Shown: positions 13,349 to 20,509 of the stretch, piece after piece | Layout of the letters: every line of letters starts with the position of its first letter | How positions within the stretch are numbered: the stretch's first letter is position 1 | NCBI GenBank assembly: GCA_027483465.1 | Contig: JAIXUQ010000005.1 | Span: 1 to 64,000 of the forward strand | Length of the DNA stretch: 64,000 bases | Direction of reading: 5' to 3' | Source: Sphingomonadales bacterium | GTDB taxonomy: Bacteria; Pseudomonadota; Alphaproteobacteria; Sphingomonadales; Sphingomonadaceae | Position numbers and translations under genes: made by a program | Notes under the pieces: generated by a model | What the model saw: only the letters and a program-made list of their open reading frames with translations | Databases searched by the model: none | Told to the model about the DNA's origin: nothing

Positions 13349-14917
13349 ATGTTGCACCGCATCATGCCCCGCCTGCGCTGCCTGCTGCCGGCCACGGCGG
13401 CCCTGCTGCTGTGGGGCTGCGCGCCGGGGGCCGGTGCCGGCGGGCCGCCGCTGTCGCCTGAGGATGTGGCCTGGCTCAACCGGTTGACCTGGGGGGCCAG
13501 CCCGGCCGATCTGCCGGAATGGCGGCGGCTGGGCCGGCAGGGCTGGATCGCGGCGCAACTGGCCTCGCCGCCCGATCAGGTGCGGCTGCCGGCCGATGTG
13601 CGGCCGATTTATGATGCGCTGGCGGTGCCGCCGGCCGGCGGGCAGGAGGATGGCAATGCCGCGATGGTGCGGCTGATGGGCCTGCGCCGCCAATCGGTTG
13701 CGGAAAAGGCCGCCGGCAAGGCCGAGGCCAGCCGTGCCACCTACCGCCGCGCCAGTGGCGAGGCCAAGCTGTGGTTTGACCGGGCGGTGCACCGCAGCCT
13801 GCTGCGCGATATCCATTCGCCCGACCAGTTGCGCGAGCAGATGAGCTGGTTCTGGTTCAACCAGTTCAACATCCGCTTCATCGGCACCGGCTTTGGCCCC
13901 CTGGCCAGCGATTATCTGGAACGCGCCATCCGCCCCCACGCGCTGGGCCGCTTCTGCGATCTCGTCCACGCCACCCAGCGCCACCCGGCGATGCTGCTCT
14001 ATCTCAACAACGCCCAAAGCCGCAAAGGCCGCATCAACGAGAATTATGCCCGCGAACTGCTGGAACTGCACACCATGGGGGTGGGCAGCGGCTATTCCCA
14101 GGCCGATGTGCAGGAACTGGCCCGCGTGCTGACCGGGTTGACGGTTGACACCGATCATTGGCCGGCGCCGCCGGCGCCGCCCGGCGGCTGGCGCGACGGC
14201 CTGGCGCTGTTTGATCCGGCCCGCCACGATGCCGGGCCCAAGCGGGTGCTGGGCCGCACGATCACCGCCACCGGCATGGCCGGCATCGAACAGGCGACCG
14301 AACTGGCCTGCCGGCATCCCGCCACCGCCCGGCGCACGGCGCGGCGGCTGGCGCAATATCTGATGGCCGATGCGCCGCCGCCGGCGGTGGTGGCGGCGAT
14401 GGCGGCCGAATTCACCCGCACCGATGGCGATATCGCCGCCGTGCTGCGCGTGCTGTTTGCGCGGCCCGAATTCGCCGCCTCGCTGGGCCGGCTCTACAAG
14501 GATCCCAATCATTATCTCCTCTCGGCGGTGCGGCTGGTGCAGGCCGGCCAGCCGCGGGCCAACATGGAGATGCTGGCCCGCGATCTGCGCCACCTGGCCC
14601 AGCCGCGCCTGGAACGGGTGACGCCCGATGGCTGGCCGCTGGAAACCGCGGCCTGGACCTCGTCGGGCCAGTTGGAGGCGCGCTTCGTGCTGGCCGGATC
14701 GCTGGGCAAGGGCGGCACCCGCAACTGGGTGTTCACCGTGCCCGCCCTGATCGAGCGGGCGCGCAACTGGCTGCTGGCGCCCGAACTGGCGGTGGTCCGC
14801 GCCGAAACCGGCATTTATGGCCAGCTCAGCCCGACGACCTCGGCCGAACTGGCCAAGGCTAATTGGCGGGAGGCCAATGTGCTGTTCCTCTCCTCACCGG
14901 AGTTCATGCGCCGATGA
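13349..14917 (+). CDS. DUF1800 family lipoprotein
   Basis: The 522-residue protein of the DUF1800 family begins with a lipoprotein signal peptide whose lipobox LLLWGC ends near residue 29. The family signature runs through the middle: LREQMSWFWFNQFNIR, a long helical segment, INENYARELLELHTMG, and LARVLTGLTVD. The C-terminal part has VLFARPEF, typical of the family. DUF1800 genes are almost always followed by a DUF1501 gene, as here with an ATGA overlap at 14914-14917. The biochemical role is not known; the pair is secreted or surface-linked. A second, unrelated-looking DUF1800 copy sits at about 31 kb in this window. The start at 13349 gives the lipobox at a normal distance; ATG 13364 is an alternative. 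Confidence 0.88.
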   Translation: MLHRIMPRLRCLLPATAALLLWGCAPGAGAGGPPLSPEDVAWLNRLTWGASPADLPEWRRLGRQGWIAAQLASPPDQVRLPADVRPIYDALAVPPAGGQEDGNAAMVRLMGLRRQSVAEKAAGKAEASRATYRRASGEAKLWFDRAVHRSLLRDIHSPDQLREQMSWFWFNQFNIRFIGTGFGPLASDYLERAIRPHALGRFCDLVHATQRHPAMLLYLNNAQSRKGRINENYARELLELHTMGVGSGYSQADVQELARVLTGLTVDTDHWPAPPAPPGGWRDGLALFDPARHDAGPKRVLGRTITATGMAGIEQATELACRHPATARRTARRLAQYLMADAPPPAVVAAMAAEFTRTDGDIAAVLRVLFARPEFAASLGRLYKDPNHYLLSAVRLVQAGQPRANMEMLARDLRHLAQPRLERVTPDGWPLETAAWTSSGQLEARFVLAGSLGKGGTRNWVFTVPALIERARNWLLAPELAVVRAETGIYGQLSPTTSAELAKANWREANVLFLSSPEFMRR

Positions 14918-16080
14918 ACCCTGCCGCTGCCAAGCGCTTCAGCCGGCGCGCGTTCCTGGCCGGAAGTGGCAGCCTGTTTGCCGCCGGCGGTTGGGCGATG
15001 CCGGCCGGCAAGCCGCGCCTGCTGCTGATCTTCCTGCGCGGCGGCTATGACAGCGCCAGCCTGCTAGTGCCGCACGCCAATGATTTCTATCGCCGCAGCC
15101 GGCCCGGCATCGCGGTGCCGCCGGCGCAACAGATCGCGCTGGCCGATGGCTGGGCGCTCACCCGCAGTGCCGATGCGCTGAAGCCGCTGTGGGATGCGCG
15201 GCAACTGGCCTTCATCCCCTTTGCCGGCTCGCCCGACCTGTCGCGCAGCCATTTCGAAACGCAGGACATCATCGAATATGGCCATGCCGGGCGGAACCGC
15301 AGCGAGACCAGCGGCTTCCTGAACCGGCTGGCAGCGGAAATCGGCGCGCGCGGCGATGCCATGGCCTTCACCCCGGCGCTGCCCATCGCCCTGCGCGGGC
15401 CGGTGGCGGTGGCCAATGTCGATCTGGGCCGGCGCACCGCCCTGCCCGAAGCGCGCCAGGCCGCGATCGCCGCCATGTATGCGCGCGATCCGCTGCTGGG
15501 CGGGCAGGTGGCCGCCGCGCTGGAGGCCGGCGCTGCGGTGTCGGCGGCGTTGCAGGCCGAAATGTTCGCCTCGGGCCGCAAGGCCGGCGGGGTGGCGGCG
15601 TTTGAGGCCAATGCGCCGCGCATGGGCGCGCTGCTGCGCGAGAAGGTGACGCTGGCCTTTGCCGATATCGGCGGGTGGGACACGCATGTCGGCCAGTTGG
15701 GCGCGCTGGATTACAAGCTGGGCGTGCTGGCGCGCGGGCTGGCCGGGCTGGCCGCCGCCATGGGCCCGGTCTGGCGCGACACCGCGGTGCTGGTGATTTC
15801 CGAATTCGGCCGCACCTTCCGCCAGAATGGCTCGGGCGGCACCGATCATGGCCATGGCACCACCTTCCTGCTGGCGGGCGGTGCCGTGGCCGGCGGGCGC
15901 ATTGGCGGCCGCCAGCAGGCGGTGACCGAGGCCGGGCTGCACCAGAACCGCGATTTCCCCGTGCTCAACGACGTGCGCGATGTGGCCGGCGGGCTGTTTG
16001 CCCGGCTCTATGGCCTGTCGCCGGCGGCGGTGCAGCGCATCTTCCCGGCTTCGCGCCCGTTTGATCTGGGCCTGTTGTGA
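14914..16080 (+). CDS. DUF1501 family Tat-exported protein
   Basis: The 388-residue protein has a twin-arginine signal (RFSRRAFLAGSGS, residues 8-20) and then the DUF1501 fold, related to alkaline phosphatase/sulfatase-like enzymes. Recognisable segments are LLLIFLRGGYDSASL, RSHFETQDIIEYG, DIGGWDTHVGQLG, VISEFGRTFRQNGSGGTDHG and LLAGGAVAGGRI. The metal-binding-like residues in GWDTH and GTDHGHG are kept. It is translationally coupled to the DUF1800 gene by ATGA. The two products are assumed to act together in the envelope, but no reaction is established for the family. Confidence 0.88.
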   Translation: MNPAAAKRFSRRAFLAGSGSLFAAGGWAMPAGKPRLLLIFLRGGYDSASLLVPHANDFYRRSRPGIAVPPAQQIALADGWALTRSADALKPLWDARQLAFIPFAGSPDLSRSHFETQDIIEYGHAGRNRSETSGFLNRLAAEIGARGDAMAFTPALPIALRGPVAVANVDLGRRTALPEARQAAIAAMYARDPLLGGQVAAALEAGAAVSAALQAEMFASGRKAGGVAAFEANAPRMGALLREKVTLAFADIGGWDTHVGQLGALDYKLGVLARGLAGLAAAMGPVWRDTAVLVISEFGRTFRQNGSGGTDHGHGTTFLLAGGAVAGGRIGGRQQAVTEAGLHQNRDFPVLNDVRDVAGGLFARLYGLSPAAVQRIFPASRPFDLGLL

Positions 16081-16167: not shown

Positions 16168-16211
16168 TGCGCCCCTAAATGCCCGCAGGCACGCGCACCC
16201 ACAGGAGACCC

Positions 16212-17930
16212 ATGGCCGCCAAGGACCTTTCGCAGATGGATCTCAACCGGCTGGTCTGGCGCTGGTTGAAGGACATCGTGTGGCCGGAGAAGAATTATTT
16301 CTGGCTGGCGATCGTCTATGGCCTGGGCATCGCGCTGCTGGGGCTGGCGGTGCCGGTTTCGGTGCAGCTGTTGATCAACAGCATCGCCAACACGGCGCTG
16401 CCGGTGCCGCTGTTCACGCTGTCGGCGCTGCTGTTCGCGCTGCTGGTGATTTCCGGCCTGCTGTCGGTGCTGCGCATCCATCTGATGGAATTGTATCGCC
16501 GCCGCTTCATGGCGCGGCTGGTGGCCGATCTCACGCTGCGGGTGATCAATGCCGCCGATCCCTTCTTTCAGGACACCCGCCGCTTTGACCTGTTCAACCG
16601 CTATTTCGAACTGGTCAACATGCAGAAGGCGATCCCGTCGCTGCTGATCGGCGGGTTCACCATCATCCTGGGCATGATCGTCGGCTTTGTCGTCACCAGT
16701 TTCTATCACCCGTTTTTCCTGGCCTTCAACCTGGTGCTGATCGCGCTGCTGTGGGCGGTGTGGGCGCTGTGGTCGAAGGGGGCGATGAAAACCTCGATCA
16801 ATCTGAGCCACGAGAAATACAACGCGGCGCATTTCCTGGAAACCATCGGCGCTTCCAACGGCTTCTACAAGTCGGCCCGGCACATCGATTATGCGCTGAA
16901 CGGCGCGGAGCGGGTGACGGCCAATTATGTCAAGGCCCATGCCGCGCATTTCAGTTACCAGTTCCCGCAGACGATCGCGCTCTATTTCCTCTATGCCGCC
17001 GCCAGCGCCGGCCTGTTGGCGCTGGGCGGCTGGCTGGTGATCCAGGAGCAATTGTCCATCGGCCAGCTGGTGGCGGCCGAGCTGATCCTGTCGGGCGTGT
17101 TTGCCGGCATGAACAGCCTCTATTCCTATCTTGATGATCTTTATGATGCGGTCGCCTCGGTGGAGGAATTGTCGCTGCTCTATGGCCTCACGCAGGAGCC
17201 GCCGGTGCCAGCCGGGGTGGCGCCGCCACGGTCGGGCGCGCTCAGCTTCGCCCGCGTCCGCACCCGGTTGCTGGCCGGCGAGGCCGAGCTGAATTTCGAA
17301 ATTCCCGAAGCCAGCCGCCTGATCTGCCAGGGCGTGCCGGGCATGGAGCGCGCCTTTGCCGATCTGATGAAGCGGCTGGATCGGCCGGCCGCCGGCATGG
17401 TGACGATCGGCGGGGTGGACATGGCGGTGATGGACCCGCTGGCGCTGCGCAGCCAGGTGATGGTGCTGGACCGTGCCGCCATCGTCGAATCCACCATCAC
17501 GGATTATCTCACCCTGGCCAATCCCGATCGCACCGCCGCCGATCATCTCGAGGCGCTGCGGCTGGTGGGGCTGGATGACCGGGTGGCGATGCTGCCCGAT
17601 GGCATGCAGACCAAGCTGTCCTCCACCGGCGCGCCGTTCACGGTGGCCAAGATGATGCAGCTGAAACTGGCGGCCTCCATCCTGTCGGAACCGCGCATCC
17701 TGGTGATGTCCCCGCTGTTCGACACGGTGCCGCTGGCCCGGCTGCGCGCGGTGTTCGAACGGCTGGCCGGCAGCCGCACCACCGTGCTTTACTTCACCAA
17801 CCGCCCTGAGGCGGTGACGCTGGATGGCTGGCTGTGGCTGGGCCTGAAACAGCAGCTGATCACCGCCGATCAGGCCGTGTTCGATGGCCTGCGCGCTGCC
17901 GCCGGCCGGGAGACCAGCGATGGCGATTGA
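16212..17930 (+). CDS. ABC exporter-like membrane protein with a degenerate (pseudo) nucleotide-binding domain
   Basis: The 572-residue protein has a typical type IV ABC exporter membrane domain (about residues 15-315, six hydrophobic segments near 28-50, 68-90, 140-162, 165-187, 252-275 and 285-305) and then an NBD-sized domain (340-572). Every ATPase motif is broken. Walker A reads GVPGMERAF (374-382) with the Lys, Gly and Ser/Thr lost. The signature reads LSSTGAPF (469-476) instead of LSGGQ. Walker B reads RILVMSPLFD (495-504) with both acidic residues lost, and the H-loop His is Asn530. The frame is intact and the spacing normal, so this is not a frameshift. The gene leads an operon with HlyD- and TolC-type genes. 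It probably cannot hydrolyse ATP by itself; a separate active partner or a non-transport role is possible. Confidence 0.88.
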   Translation: MAAKDLSQMDLNRLVWRWLKDIVWPEKNYFWLAIVYGLGIALLGLAVPVSVQLLINSIANTALPVPLFTLSALLFALLVISGLLSVLRIHLMELYRRRFMARLVADLTLRVINAADPFFQDTRRFDLFNRYFELVNMQKAIPSLLIGGFTIILGMIVGFVVTSFYHPFFLAFNLVLIALLWAVWALWSKGAMKTSINLSHEKYNAAHFLETIGASNGFYKSARHIDYALNGAERVTANYVKAHAAHFSYQFPQTIALYFLYAAASAGLLALGGWLVIQEQLSIGQLVAAELILSGVFAGMNSLYSYLDDLYDAVASVEELSLLYGLTQEPPVPAGVAPPRSGALSFARVRTRLLAGEAELNFEIPEASRLICQGVPGMERAFADLMKRLDRPAAGMVTIGGVDMAVMDPLALRSQVMVLDRAAIVESTITDYLTLANPDRTAADHLEALRLVGLDDRVAMLPDGMQTKLSSTGAPFTVAKMMQLKLAASILSEPRILVMSPLFDTVPLARLRAVFERLAGSRTTVLYFTNRPEAVTLDGWLWLGLKQQLITADQAVFDGLRAAAGRETSDGD

Positions 17931-18999
17931 GCCGCGGACCGCCCATGCGGCCAGCTTCCCCACGCTTGCCGGCCTGCAGCCGCCGCGCATCATGCGCGTG
18001 GTGGGCTGGACGGTGATGATCGGCCTGGTGCTGTTCGGGCTGTTTATCACGCTGGTGCCCTGGGTGCAGACGGCGCAGGGATCGGGCAGCGTGATCGCCT
18101 TTGATCCGCGTGACCGGCAGCAGAACATCACCGCGCTGGTGCCCGGCCGGCTGGAGCGCTGGTATGTGACCGACGGCGCCCGCGTGAAGGCCGGTGATCC
18201 CATCGCCCGCGTGGTGGACATCGATCCCGATTTCCTGGCCCGGCTGGGGGCGGAACGCGCGCAGAAAGTGGCCGAGATTGCCGCCACCGAAGCCGCCATG
18301 GCCACCGCCATGCGCGATGTGCGCCGCATGACCACCCTTTATGGCGAAGGCCTGGCGGCGCGGCGCGACATGGAACTGGCGCAGATCAAGGTGGCCGAAT
18401 TCCGCGCCAAGATCGCCTCCTCGCGCGCCGAGATCAACAAGATCGACGTGAACTTGCGCCGCCAGTCCGAACAGATGATCCGCGCGCCGCGCGCCGGGCG
18501 CATCATGCGCGTCTCCAGCATCGATACCGCCACCATCGTCAAGCAGGGTGATCTGCTCGCCACCTTCGTGCCCGAACAGTCGCGCCGGGTGGTGGAGCTT
18601 TATGTCGATGGCCGCGATGTGCCGCTGATCCATGTCGGCCGCCGGGTGCGGCTGGAATTCGAAGGCTGGCCGGCGATCCAGTTTTCCGGCTGGCCATCGG
18701 TGGCCAAGGGCTATTTCGATGGCCAGGTGGCGGCGGTGGATCTCAACGCCTCGCCCAACGGCCTGTTCCGCCTGCTGGTCACCGAAAGCCCGGATCGGGA
18801 TCCCTGGCCGGATGAACGCTCGGTGCGGCTGGGCGCCAAGGTGCGCGGCTGGGTGCAGATGAACACCGTGCCGATCTGGTTCGAACTGTGGCGGCTGCTG
18901 AACGATTTCCCGCTGCAATTCACCCGCCCGGGGGCCAGCCCGGCCGAAAACGGCATGCCCAAGGCTGATGCCAAGGCCGATGATGCCAAGGCGAAATAA
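17920..18999 (+). CDS. HlyD-family membrane fusion (periplasmic adaptor) protein
   Basis: The 359-residue protein has one membrane segment near residues 26-48 after a short cytoplasmic tail. An N-terminal lipoyl-like half follows (QNITALVPGRLERWYVTDGARVKAGDPIARV), then a helical hairpin of about 100 residues with a coiled-coil pattern, and the second half-lipoyl segment (IRAPRAGRIMRV, KQGDLLATFVPE). A beta-barrel domain completes it. This is the adaptor architecture of type I secretion and related exporters. It bridges the inner-membrane ABC protein and the outer-membrane channel. ATG 17920 overlaps the end of the ABC gene by 11 nt. The C-terminal tail is charged and repetitive (KADAKADDAKAK). 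Confidence 0.88.
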   Translation: MAIEPRTAHAASFPTLAGLQPPRIMRVVGWTVMIGLVLFGLFITLVPWVQTAQGSGSVIAFDPRDRQQNITALVPGRLERWYVTDGARVKAGDPIARVVDIDPDFLARLGAERAQKVAEIAATEAAMATAMRDVRRMTTLYGEGLAARRDMELAQIKVAEFRAKIASSRAEINKIDVNLRRQSEQMIRAPRAGRIMRVSSIDTATIVKQGDLLATFVPEQSRRVVELYVDGRDVPLIHVGRRVRLEFEGWPAIQFSGWPSVAKGYFDGQVAAVDLNASPNGLFRLLVTESPDRDPWPDERSVRLGAKVRGWVQMNTVPIWFELWRLLNDFPLQFTRPGASPAENGMPKADAKADDAKAK

Positions 19000-20509
19000 T
19001 CGGGCGGCGTGCGGGTTGGCGCTGCTGCTGCTGGCTGCCCCGGCGGTGGCTCCCGCGGCCGCGCAGGAGGCTCCGCGCGCCTCGCAGCCGCTCAGCGGCC
19101 GGCCGGCGGCCAGCCCGGCGCTGGAGGCGGCGGCCCGCACCGCAGCGGCGCCGCTGCCCGAGGCCGCCGCCGTCCTCAGCCTTGACGCGCTGCTGGCCAA
19201 CAGCCGCTATCACGCGCCGCAGGTGCTGGAAGCGCTGGCCCGGGTGCGCGGCGCCGAAGCCCGCCTGCTCACCACCGAAGGCGCGTTCGACACGCTGTTC
19301 AGCGCCAATGCCGACACGCGGCCCACCGGCTTTTTCGATGGCGCCACCGCCGGGGTCCGGCTCAGCCAGCCGCTCGTCGGCAATGGCGGCAATGTCTATG
19401 CCGGCTATGACATCGCGCGCGGGCGGTTTTCCAGTTCGCAGGCCAGCAGCAACACCGCGCTCTATGGCCGGGTCACGCTGGGCACGCTGTTTTCGCTGCT
19501 GCGTGACCGCGACATCGACGAGCGGCGCTTCAACCGGACACTGGCCATCGGCGATGTGGAACTGGCCGACAATGACCGGCTGGTGGTGGCGATCGGCGTG
19601 CAGGCGCGCGCCATTGCCGCCTGGAACAACTGGGTGATCGCCGGCCAGCGTCTCACCGTGTTCAAGGGCCTGCTGCAACTGGCGCTTGACCGGCAGGCCG
19701 GGTTCAAGCGGCAGGTGGCCGAAGGCCTGCGCCCGGCCGTGCTGCTCACCGAGAATGAGCAGAATATCCTGCGCCGGCAGACGTTGGTGGTGCAGGCCGA
19801 ACAATCGCTGCAACAGGCGGCGATCGCCCTGTCCTTGTTCTGGCGCGATGCCGATGGCAACCCGCTGGTGCCCGGCCCCGAGCAATTGCCGCGCAGCCTG
19901 CCCGCGCCGCTGCCGGTGGCCGAGGATGTGATGGCGGCGCTGGAAAACCGCCCTGATCTCAGGGTGGTTGACGTGCGCATCACCCAGGCCCGGCAGCGGC
20001 TGGCGCTTGATCGCAACAATTTCCTGCCCCGCCTCGATCTCAGGGCCGAGGTGAACCAGTATCTGGGCGAGGCCGGGCTGGCGGGCCGCGCCTATACCGG
20101 CACCGAAAGCCGGCTTGGCCTCACGCTCAGCGTGCCGATCCAGCAGCGCACGGCGCGCGGCCGGCTGGATCAGACGCGGGCCGATCTGGATGGCTTCCAG
20201 CAGCGCCGCCGCTTCATCGAGGACCAGATTCGCATCGAGATCGGCAATCTTTCGGTGGCCGCACGGCAGGCCCGCCGCCTGCTGGGCATCGCCATCGACG
20301 AGGCTGACCGGGCCCTGACCATGGCCAGCGCCGAGCGCCGCCGCTTCCAGGAAGGCGCGTCGGATTTCTTCGTCGTCAACCTGCGCGAGGAGGCCGCCGC
20401 CGATGCCCAGGTGCGGCGGCTGGATGCCGCCTTCCGCCAGATCGTCGCCCATGCCGATCTGGCCGCCGCCACGGCCGATCTGAAGGCGCTTGGCCTTTCA
20501 GGCAGTTGA
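18983..20509 (+). CDS. TolC-family outer-membrane efflux/secretion channel
   Basis: The 508-residue protein has a signal peptide (about residues 1-28, cleavage near AAAQ/E) and the duplicated helical/beta layout of TolC-type channels. It shows LSQPLVGNGGNVYAGYDIARG, RQVAEGLRPAVLLTENEQNILRRQ and the second-repeat ENRPDLRVVDVRITQARQRLALDRNNFLPRLDL, which is typical of the family. Its start overlaps the HlyD gene. ATG 18983 was preferred because AAGG lies six bases before it; ATGs at 18968 and 18980 are also in frame. Together with the two upstream genes it forms a complete envelope-spanning export apparatus. No linked substrate with RTX repeats or protease was seen. Confidence 0.88.
   Translation: MPRRNNRAACGLALLLLAAPAVAPAAAQEAPRASQPLSGRPAASPALEAAARTAAAPLPEAAAVLSLDALLANSRYHAPQVLEALARVRGAEARLLTTEGAFDTLFSANADTRPTGFFDGATAGVRLSQPLVGNGGNVYAGYDIARGRFSSSQASSNTALYGRVTLGTLFSLLRDRDIDERRFNRTLAIGDVELADNDRLVVAIGVQARAIAAWNNWVIAGQRLTVFKGLLQLALDRQAGFKRQVAEGLRPAVLLTENEQNILRRQTLVVQAEQSLQQAAIALSLFWRDADGNPLVPGPEQLPRSLPAPLPVAEDVMAALENRPDLRVVDVRITQARQRLALDRNNFLPRLDLRAEVNQYLGEAGLAGRAYTGTESRLGLTLSVPIQQRTARGRLDQTRADLDGFQQRRRFIEDQIRIEIGNLSVAARQARRLLGIAIDEADRALTMASAERRRFQEGASDFFVVNLREEAAADAQVRRLDAAFRQIVAHADLAAATADLKALGLSGS

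Follow-up and report, generated by a model that had tools for sequence, protein, structure and literature searches.

A HlyD/TolC-linked ABC-type protein that has lost every ATPase motif suggests a tripartite exporter powered by something besides ATP

Heterodimeric ATP-binding cassette (ABC) exporters such as TmrAB and TM287/288 keep one complete composite nucleotide site and a second subunit. For tripartite systems, a review names ABC, resistance-nodulation-division (RND), and major facilitator superfamily (MFS) proteins as the energized inner-membrane parts (PMC8277102), and SbmA is described as a proton-driven relative held to have lost its nucleotide-binding domain (NBD) (PMC13316013). Here we describe a three-gene operon at positions 16,212 to 20,509 of a 64,000-nucleotide stretch of Sphingomonadales DNA (contig JAIXUQ010000005.1; the whole stretch is called the window). 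Judging from alignments, its ABC protein, P0001, has lost every ATPase motif, and ATPase motifs are lost across its family. Homology to type I secretion exporters, this motif loss, linkage to an adaptor and an outer membrane factor, purifying selection, an NBD-less form, and a conserved glutamate in transmembrane segment 6 (TM6) suggest a pseudo-ABC tripartite exporter that would be powered by something besides ATP; from them we infer the energy source and substrate proposed below.

An exporter-type transmembrane domain (TMD) and a fused NBD-sized domain share one frame in P0001, as the original prediction, made from the sequence alone, had claimed. Residues 13 to 499 matched the type I permease/ATPase model TIGR01846 (E value, 1.2e-32; 113 bits, far under the curated cutoff of 725), and residues 17 to 501 matched HlyB in the PDB (E value, 1.6e-21). 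The Pfam ABC_membrane score over residues 31 to 296 was 26 bits, just below the cutoff of 28, and ABC_tran gave no match to the pseudo-NBD at an E value of ≤1. The predicted loss of Walker A, Walker B, and the H-loop was confirmed, with GVPGMER at Walker A (E379/R380 at the Lys/Ser positions), S500 replacing the Walker B Asp, and Asn530 at the H-loop. The signature is lost too, but not where it had been placed: LSSTG (residues 469 to 473) lies just upstream of the true LSGGQ column (F476 to K480) in the multiple alignment. A working nucleotide site, composed of Walker A, Walker B, signature, and H-loop, was thus not found in P0001. The features of the operon, all on the forward strand, are as follows.

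16212..17930, forward strand: pseudo-ABC exporter P0001, 572 amino acids (aa), with an in-frame alternative start at 16179
16269..17168, forward strand: membrane domain, residues 20 to 319, six transmembrane segments (by inspection), the more conserved part
16707..16709, forward strand: H166 codon (YHP, TM3-TM4 loop), present in 120/120 family rows and also in 11/20 canonical exporters
17079..17081, forward strand: E290 codon in TM6, Glu in 120/120 family rows
17247..17867, forward strand: pseudo-NBD, residues 346 to 552, from the alignment with the HlyB NBD
17328..17354, forward strand: P-loop position, residues 373 to 381, with E379/R380 in place of the Walker A Lys/Ser
17637..17651, forward strand: ABC signature position, residues 476 to 480, FTVAK where LSGGQ is expected
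17694..17723, forward strand: Walker B position, residues 495 to 504, with Asp replaced by S500 and Glu by P501
17799..17801, forward strand: H-loop position, Asn530
17884..18999, forward strand: HlyD-type periplasmic adaptor P0002, 371 aa, whose start may be an internal ATG near 17920
18325..18363, forward strand: adaptor hairpin-tip motif R-x3-L-x3-GL-x2-R, residues 148 to 160
18968..20509, forward strand: TolC-type outer membrane factor P0003 (OEP, 84 bits; cutoff, 22)

As had also been predicted, HlyD-type and TolC-type genes follow the ABC gene with overlaps (open reading frames [ORFs] 17884 to 18999 and 18968 to 20509); the true HlyD and TolC starts possibly lie downstream. Both partners of a type I-like ABC gene are therefore present, namely an adaptor with a hairpin tip and an outer membrane factor scoring over the OEP cutoff. 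P0002 reached 64 bits against a type_I_hlyD cutoff of 209. Its tip residues R148, L152, G156, and L157 were kept in 44/44 adaptors and R160 in 39/44, and by likeness to known adaptors we presume that this tip docks to TolC. Because of the linkage to HlyD and TolC, export across the envelope is the probable function.

The losses extend across the family. We examined 121 loci, of which one (L084) was dropped because no ORF was found. The Walker A Lys was present in 1 of the 119 NBD-bearing homologues, the Walker B Asp in none, and the H-loop His in 2 (the 120 family rows, 119 of them with an NBD, and the 102 loci whose flanks were checked include near-duplicates, the same genome occurring in two collections). 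The order ABC-HlyD-TolC was found in 114/114 complete loci, the other six of the 120 loci with an ORF being cut at contig ends. The clade-wide loss of the same residues beside HlyD and TolC neighbors, which the original prediction had proposed to look for, was thus observed; close homologues with normal Walker motifs were not found (Walker B Asp absent in 119/119), and NBD ratios of nonsynonymous to synonymous substitution (dN/dS) were not near one (medians, 0.10 to 0.31). Family-wide recurrence together with purifying selection on the NBD argues that the motif loss reflects neither chance nor decay, and P0001 very probably does not hydrolyze ATP, as far as its sequence can indicate.

In three sets of 15, 21, and 21 pairs, median dN/dS was 0.307, 0.097, and 0.142 for the NBD and 0.134, 0.087, and 0.067 for the TMD; the pseudo-NBD is under selection, but more relaxed selection than the TMD. 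Conservation is inverted relative to canonical exporters: the NBD was more conserved than the TMD in 52 of 55 canonical PrtD-type pairs (11 sequences of the same order) and in 8 of 946 family pairs (44 sequences), the pairs not being independent. The canonical sequences came from 30 fetched loci, of which 11 passed the motif filter for this comparison and 14 for the comparison of residues. Within the pseudo-NBD, the mean top-residue frequency of the P-loop was 0.48 in the family versus 0.80 in canonical exporters, while the Q-loop and the X-loop/signature segment had values of 0.75 and 0.70 (canonical, 0.65 and 0.67). These latter segments face the TMD in ABC exporters.

Relatives of P0001 were detected in 82 of 396 genomes of its order (E value, ≤1e-40). 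In a named genome collection, at least 592 stretches fit the search patterns and 563 encode a relative; our analysis of that collection used the best 80 of the 563, which are mostly labelled sphingomonads, with Xanthomonas, Caulobacter, Parvularcula, Kordiimonas, and a few metagenome-assembled genomes (MAGs). Across the phylum, 398 scanned genomes yielded 15 matches (E value, ≤1e-45), of which 11 belong to the family and 4 are canonical exporters, with a bit-score gap from 404 to 169. Novosphingobium aromaticivorans DSM 12444 also carries the operon (SARO_RS19820 to SARO_RS19810). Sixteen plasmid records with a relative were found, 15 of them from sphingomonads. In 5 of the 16, the ABC gene is annotated "ABC transporter ATP-binding protein," an annotation that is unsupported by the sequence as we read it. 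Among the matches listed in a search of the open-access literature, no report of a pseudo-ABC/HlyD/TolC family was found.

Distant members belong to other classes of the phylum or, on plasmids of Persicobacter, Aureibacter, and Riemerella, to Bacteroidota. A HlyD-like gene adjoins the ABC gene in 14/14 distant loci looked at, and a P0003-like TolC was matched by BLAST in 11 of them; of the three without a match, one (L167) carries a gene annotated as TolC, and the others (L184 and L195) have a third ORF of unverified kind. These relatives are eroded to differing degrees. Walker A and the Walker B Asp persist in two of them (L179 and L190), which have lost the catalytic Glu, the His, and the signature; L191 keeps the Walker B Asp, and L167 keeps the Walker A pattern. 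In a TMD tree, none of the 52 family rows had the signature SGG or a complete nucleotide site; single site residues do reappear, 6 rows having the Glu that follows Walker B and 2 rows the His. The family was separated from four canonical exporters with an SH-aLRT support of 100, on long branches (93 after two outgroup rows were added). Within the family, the deepest splits have weak support, and the Walker A states need at least three changes; the TMD tree does not settle the order of loss. Because all Walker-A-keeping rows fall in one clade with Bacteroidota rows, they are not shown to be ancestral. Six loci (L051, L083, L085, L087, L090, and L095) were left out of the trees, and the 52-row tree also excludes L006 and L004. 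Some distant members, such as L165 (6500 to 8671) and L191 (1447 to 3774), have at least about 150 additional, unassigned residues N-terminal to the membrane domain.

One genome, G093, carries a version in which the NBD is gone. Its ABC gene encodes 333 aa, a membrane domain ending after TM6, and its TGA stop overlaps the start (ATGA) of an intact HlyD gene, with an intact TolC gene next. The protein scored 44.6 bits with ABC_membrane, above the cutoff of 28, and kept 59 of the 65 TMD positions conserved at ≥95% in the core family; it, too, has Glu at position 290. A search of the contig for remains of an NBD found none (best tblastn E value, 0.04), and no pseudo-NBD was detected elsewhere in the genome (best E value, 2e-7, at 22% identity in a 663-aa ORF). 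This was the single NBD-less form among the 82 order-wide matches and one of 11 matches in 29 genomes of its own family; there was none among 36 matches in 298 genomes of the window's family and none among 3 matches in 177 genomes of the order of G781.

Candidate coupling residues lie in TM6. E290 is Glu in 58/58 wide-family rows versus 0/20 canonical exporters, which have Ser, Asn, or Val there. Position 312 is acidic in 49/58 rows and position 319 in 47/58, versus 0/20 canonical sequences in both cases, 18 of the 20 having Arg at 319. Q253 and K202 are likewise invariant in the family. LmrA offers a precedent: its membrane domain was concluded to be a secondary-active translocator, and transport coupled to protons was found to require E314 in its TM6 (PMC6155054). 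By its distance from the Walker A Lys, E314 would correspond to about residue 305 of P0001, an unaligned estimate that lies nearer 308 to 312 than 290. NBD-less MsbA is active, less so than the wild type, with erythromycin half-maximal inhibitory concentrations (IC50s) of 0.094 µM, versus 0.393 µM for the wild type and 0.051 µM for a nonexpressing control (PMC4979069). In SbmA, proton-coupled transport runs through a glutamate ladder; the TM6 acidic positions of the P0001 family may serve coupling.

On this basis we tentatively propose a tripartite exporter in which the ABC-fold component now works as a secondary transporter. An ion gradient is its most likely driving force, as others concluded for NBD-less LmrA and MsbA and for SbmA. 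P0001 would homodimerize, and alternating access would be driven by the movement of protons or other ions via E290 and the acidic residues at the cytoplasmic end of TM6. What is exported, by way of the adaptor and TolC, would probably be a small amphipathic compound and not a large protein. The pseudo-NBD would act as a structural clamp on the coupling helices and would be wholly dispensable. A wider claim, which we hold with still less confidence, is that an ion-driven ABC-fold exporter may represent a fourth way to power tripartite envelope-spanning exporters, with members ranging from Walker-A-intact through dead-NBD to NBD-less.

Several points weigh against this proposal. The control of 20 canonical sequences consists mostly of type I secretion exporters, the placement of E290 comes from sequence alignment alone, and other ABC exporters also carry acidic residues in TM6 (LmrA E314). 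The NBD-less LmrA membrane domain (LmrA-MD) gave no ATP-triggered current (PMC6155054), and full-length MsbA with a broken Walker A (deltaK382) had an IC50 close to that of the nonexpressing control (PMC4979069). Since the IC50 of that mutant is below that of NBD-less MsbA, a dead NBD that is kept can be worse than none; ion coupling had seemed an even bet to us, and giving this mutant its weight lowered our confidence to somewhat under that. G093 is the only clean NBD-less case, in a genome of 250 contigs, and its protein has K at 308 and R at 312. Finally, by retaining Walker A and the Walker B Asp, L179 and L190 may still be able to bind nucleotide.

Of the explanations that compete with ion coupling, the main one is a passive or ligand-gated conduit, in which the ABC fold serves as a gated pore or facilitator under an adaptor/TolC tube and the substrate moves downhill with no energy coupling. 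It requires no energy machinery, agrees with NBD loss and the NBD-less form, and could explain the strong conservation of the TMD and adaptor by gating alone. Against it, the invariant glutamate of TM6 and the acidic end of that segment would look more like coupling residues, and we regard a conduit as rather unlikely; still, sequence cannot tell an ion-driven transporter from a passive conduit. A related possibility, which we consider improbable, is that a nucleotide or other small ligand binds the pseudo-NBD without hydrolysis and gates a conduit. The Walker A pattern in L179, L190, and L167, the Walker B Asp in L179, L190, and L191, and the purifying selection on the pseudo-NBD would fit such gating, and LmrA currents are said to start on ATP binding, not hydrolysis (PMC6155054). 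Its weakness is the window's own family, where the Walker A Lys occurs in 1/119 and the Walker B Asp in 0/119 and P-loop conservation is low. Decay of the operon into pseudogenes is barely credible. Isolated decay of the window copy is ruled out by the family-wide losses, gene order, and dN/dS, and for the family as a whole dN/dS far below 1, the 114/114 conserved gene order, and relatives in two phyla tell against it. Two damaged copies are the evidence in its favor, and both may reflect sequencing errors: in G1456 (L253, 3419 to 5100, one contig) the NBD is frameshifted while the TMD part and the HlyD- and TolC-like ORFs remain, and in G355 (L055, 9041 to 10721) two frames share the membrane part, with the break near the gene start.

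An ATPase acting in trans, either a canonical ABC exporter or a stand-alone NBD from another locus, would supply hydrolysis, and a universal partner is conceivable. The window's genome has 32 PF00005 matches (31 above the cutoff). An ORF with Walker A and LSGG[QEM], a pattern that would miss variant signatures, was found within 5 kb in 16 of the 102 loci with 5 kb on both sides: 11 are Xanthomonas loci with a canonical exporter-like ORF (MsbA-type by eye) about 1.1 to 1.2 kb upstream, and 5 have ORFs of 977 to 1,054 aa that resemble UvrA by eye. Thus 91 of the 102 loci had no exporter-like LSGG ORF within 5 kb and no second ABC subunit of this kind beside the operon, the 11 with such an ORF being Xanthomonas loci. 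The window likewise has no linked second ATPase, as first reported. The listed Sphingomonas members share the Xanthomonas cassette without the upstream exporter. In 99 genomes scanned for the PrtD-type class only, PrtD-type exporters (E value, ≤1e-80) were present in 16 of 19 carriers and absent in 3 (G005, G012, and G093). Because P0001 lacks Walker A, Walker B, and the signature, both of its half-sites are lost, and pairing with one competent NBD would complete neither composite site. With no complete composite site and no linked partner outside Xanthomonas, a trans ATPase seems, if anything, slightly more improbable than ligand gating. Of the three options originally offered, an active NBD elsewhere has thus become less likely, while another energy source and a gated conduit remain.

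The cassette appears to have moved as a unit. X. arboricola (L137) and Sphingomonas echinoides (L136) share 83%, 81%, and 74% identity in the ABC, HlyD, and TolC genes and 88% in an upstream LysR gene in the same arrangement; these values (74 to 88%) suggest that a LysR-ABC-HlyD-TolC cassette was transferred as a block between classes. LysR lies ≤500 bp from the operon in 17 of 44 groups, six of these proteins scoring best to OxyR, under its cutoff. Within 9 kb in 45 groups, the commonest flanking clusters were LysR (20) and signal-transduction-like ORFs (14), followed among ORFs labelled by eye by acyl-CoA-dehydrogenase-like (9) and TonB-receptor-like (8) ones. No conserved linked cargo was seen, no flanking cluster within 9 kb occurring in more than 20 of the 45 groups; repeats-in-toxin (RTX) motifs and unlinked substrates were not searched for. 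The neighbors vary (MFS and RND efflux genes, a DUF2309 gene, TonB receptors, and a radical-SAM peptide maturase pair), which mildly favors a small-molecule exporter.

Individual loci offered further observations. On a Sphingobium baderi plasmid (NZ_CP128178.1; L249, 1 to 2063), the operon lies about 4 kb from the His-Xaa-Ser radical SAM maturases HxsB/HxsC, and a peptide cargo is possible in that one genome. On plasmid pHAL16 of Sphingobium sp. KCTC 72723 (L163, 1362 to 3914), the operon is immediately preceded by a DUF2309 gene, presumably DabA-like, and a carbonic anhydrase gene is nearby. In the window, two ORFs on the same strand lie directly upstream (13349 to 16080), which we take to be a DUF1800/DUF1501-like pair. 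A promoter and terminator scan gave nothing exceeding chance, and a defense role was rejected since P0001, P0002, and P0003 had no PADLOC match. Two MAGs, labelled Steroidobacteraceae (L096) and Rhodospirillaceae (L126), carry sphingomonad-like copies that may be binning errors or recent transfers. Several genomes of the order (G001:C18, G016:C179, G033:C221, and others) have two PrtD/LssB-like exporter genes close together, outside the pseudo-ABC family.

If the proposal holds, the family would parallel in nature the disputed experiments on NBD-less LmrA and MsbA and would be a second case, in the export direction, of what SbmA did for import. An ABC fold without ATP hydrolysis would suggest that the membrane domain can couple to another natural energy source, and the series from partly eroded to NBD-less members would offer a way to study how primary transport gives way to secondary transport.

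Among known systems, type I secretion exporters (HlyB, PrtD, and LssB; TIGR01846, TIGR01842, and TIGR03375) have the same near-full-length TMD and NBD-like similarity and adjacent HlyD and TolC; the P0001 family differs in having lost Walker A, Walker B, the signature, and the H-loop and in its inverted conservation. The heterodimers TmrAB and TM287/288 also have a degenerate nucleotide site, whereas P0001 has no complete site and no partner linked in the window. MacAB, EmrAB, and RND tripartite pumps share the hairpin-tip adaptor and TolC-type duct, but the inner-membrane part here is neither a working ABC ATPase nor an MFS or RND protein. LmrA-MD and the corresponding MsbA-MD are, like the G093 form, exporter membrane domains without an NBD, and LmrA has an essential TM6 glutamate; they are laboratory truncations, whereas the loss in G093 is natural and inside a tripartite operon. 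MsbA with a dead NBD in place did not work (PMC4979069), whereas the P0001 family mostly keeps its dead NBD. SbmA/BacA (SLiPT) proteins combine an ABC-type TMD without a working NBD with a conserved membrane-domain glutamate, and G093 has likewise lost the NBD wholly. Membership in that family was rejected: neither P0001 nor the G093 form matched the Pfam family SbmA_BacA (which we take to be PF05992) at an E value of ≤1, and the pseudo-NBD is present in P0001. SbmA is an importer, whereas the P0001 family is linked to HlyD and TolC and nearly all of its members keep the pseudo-NBD.

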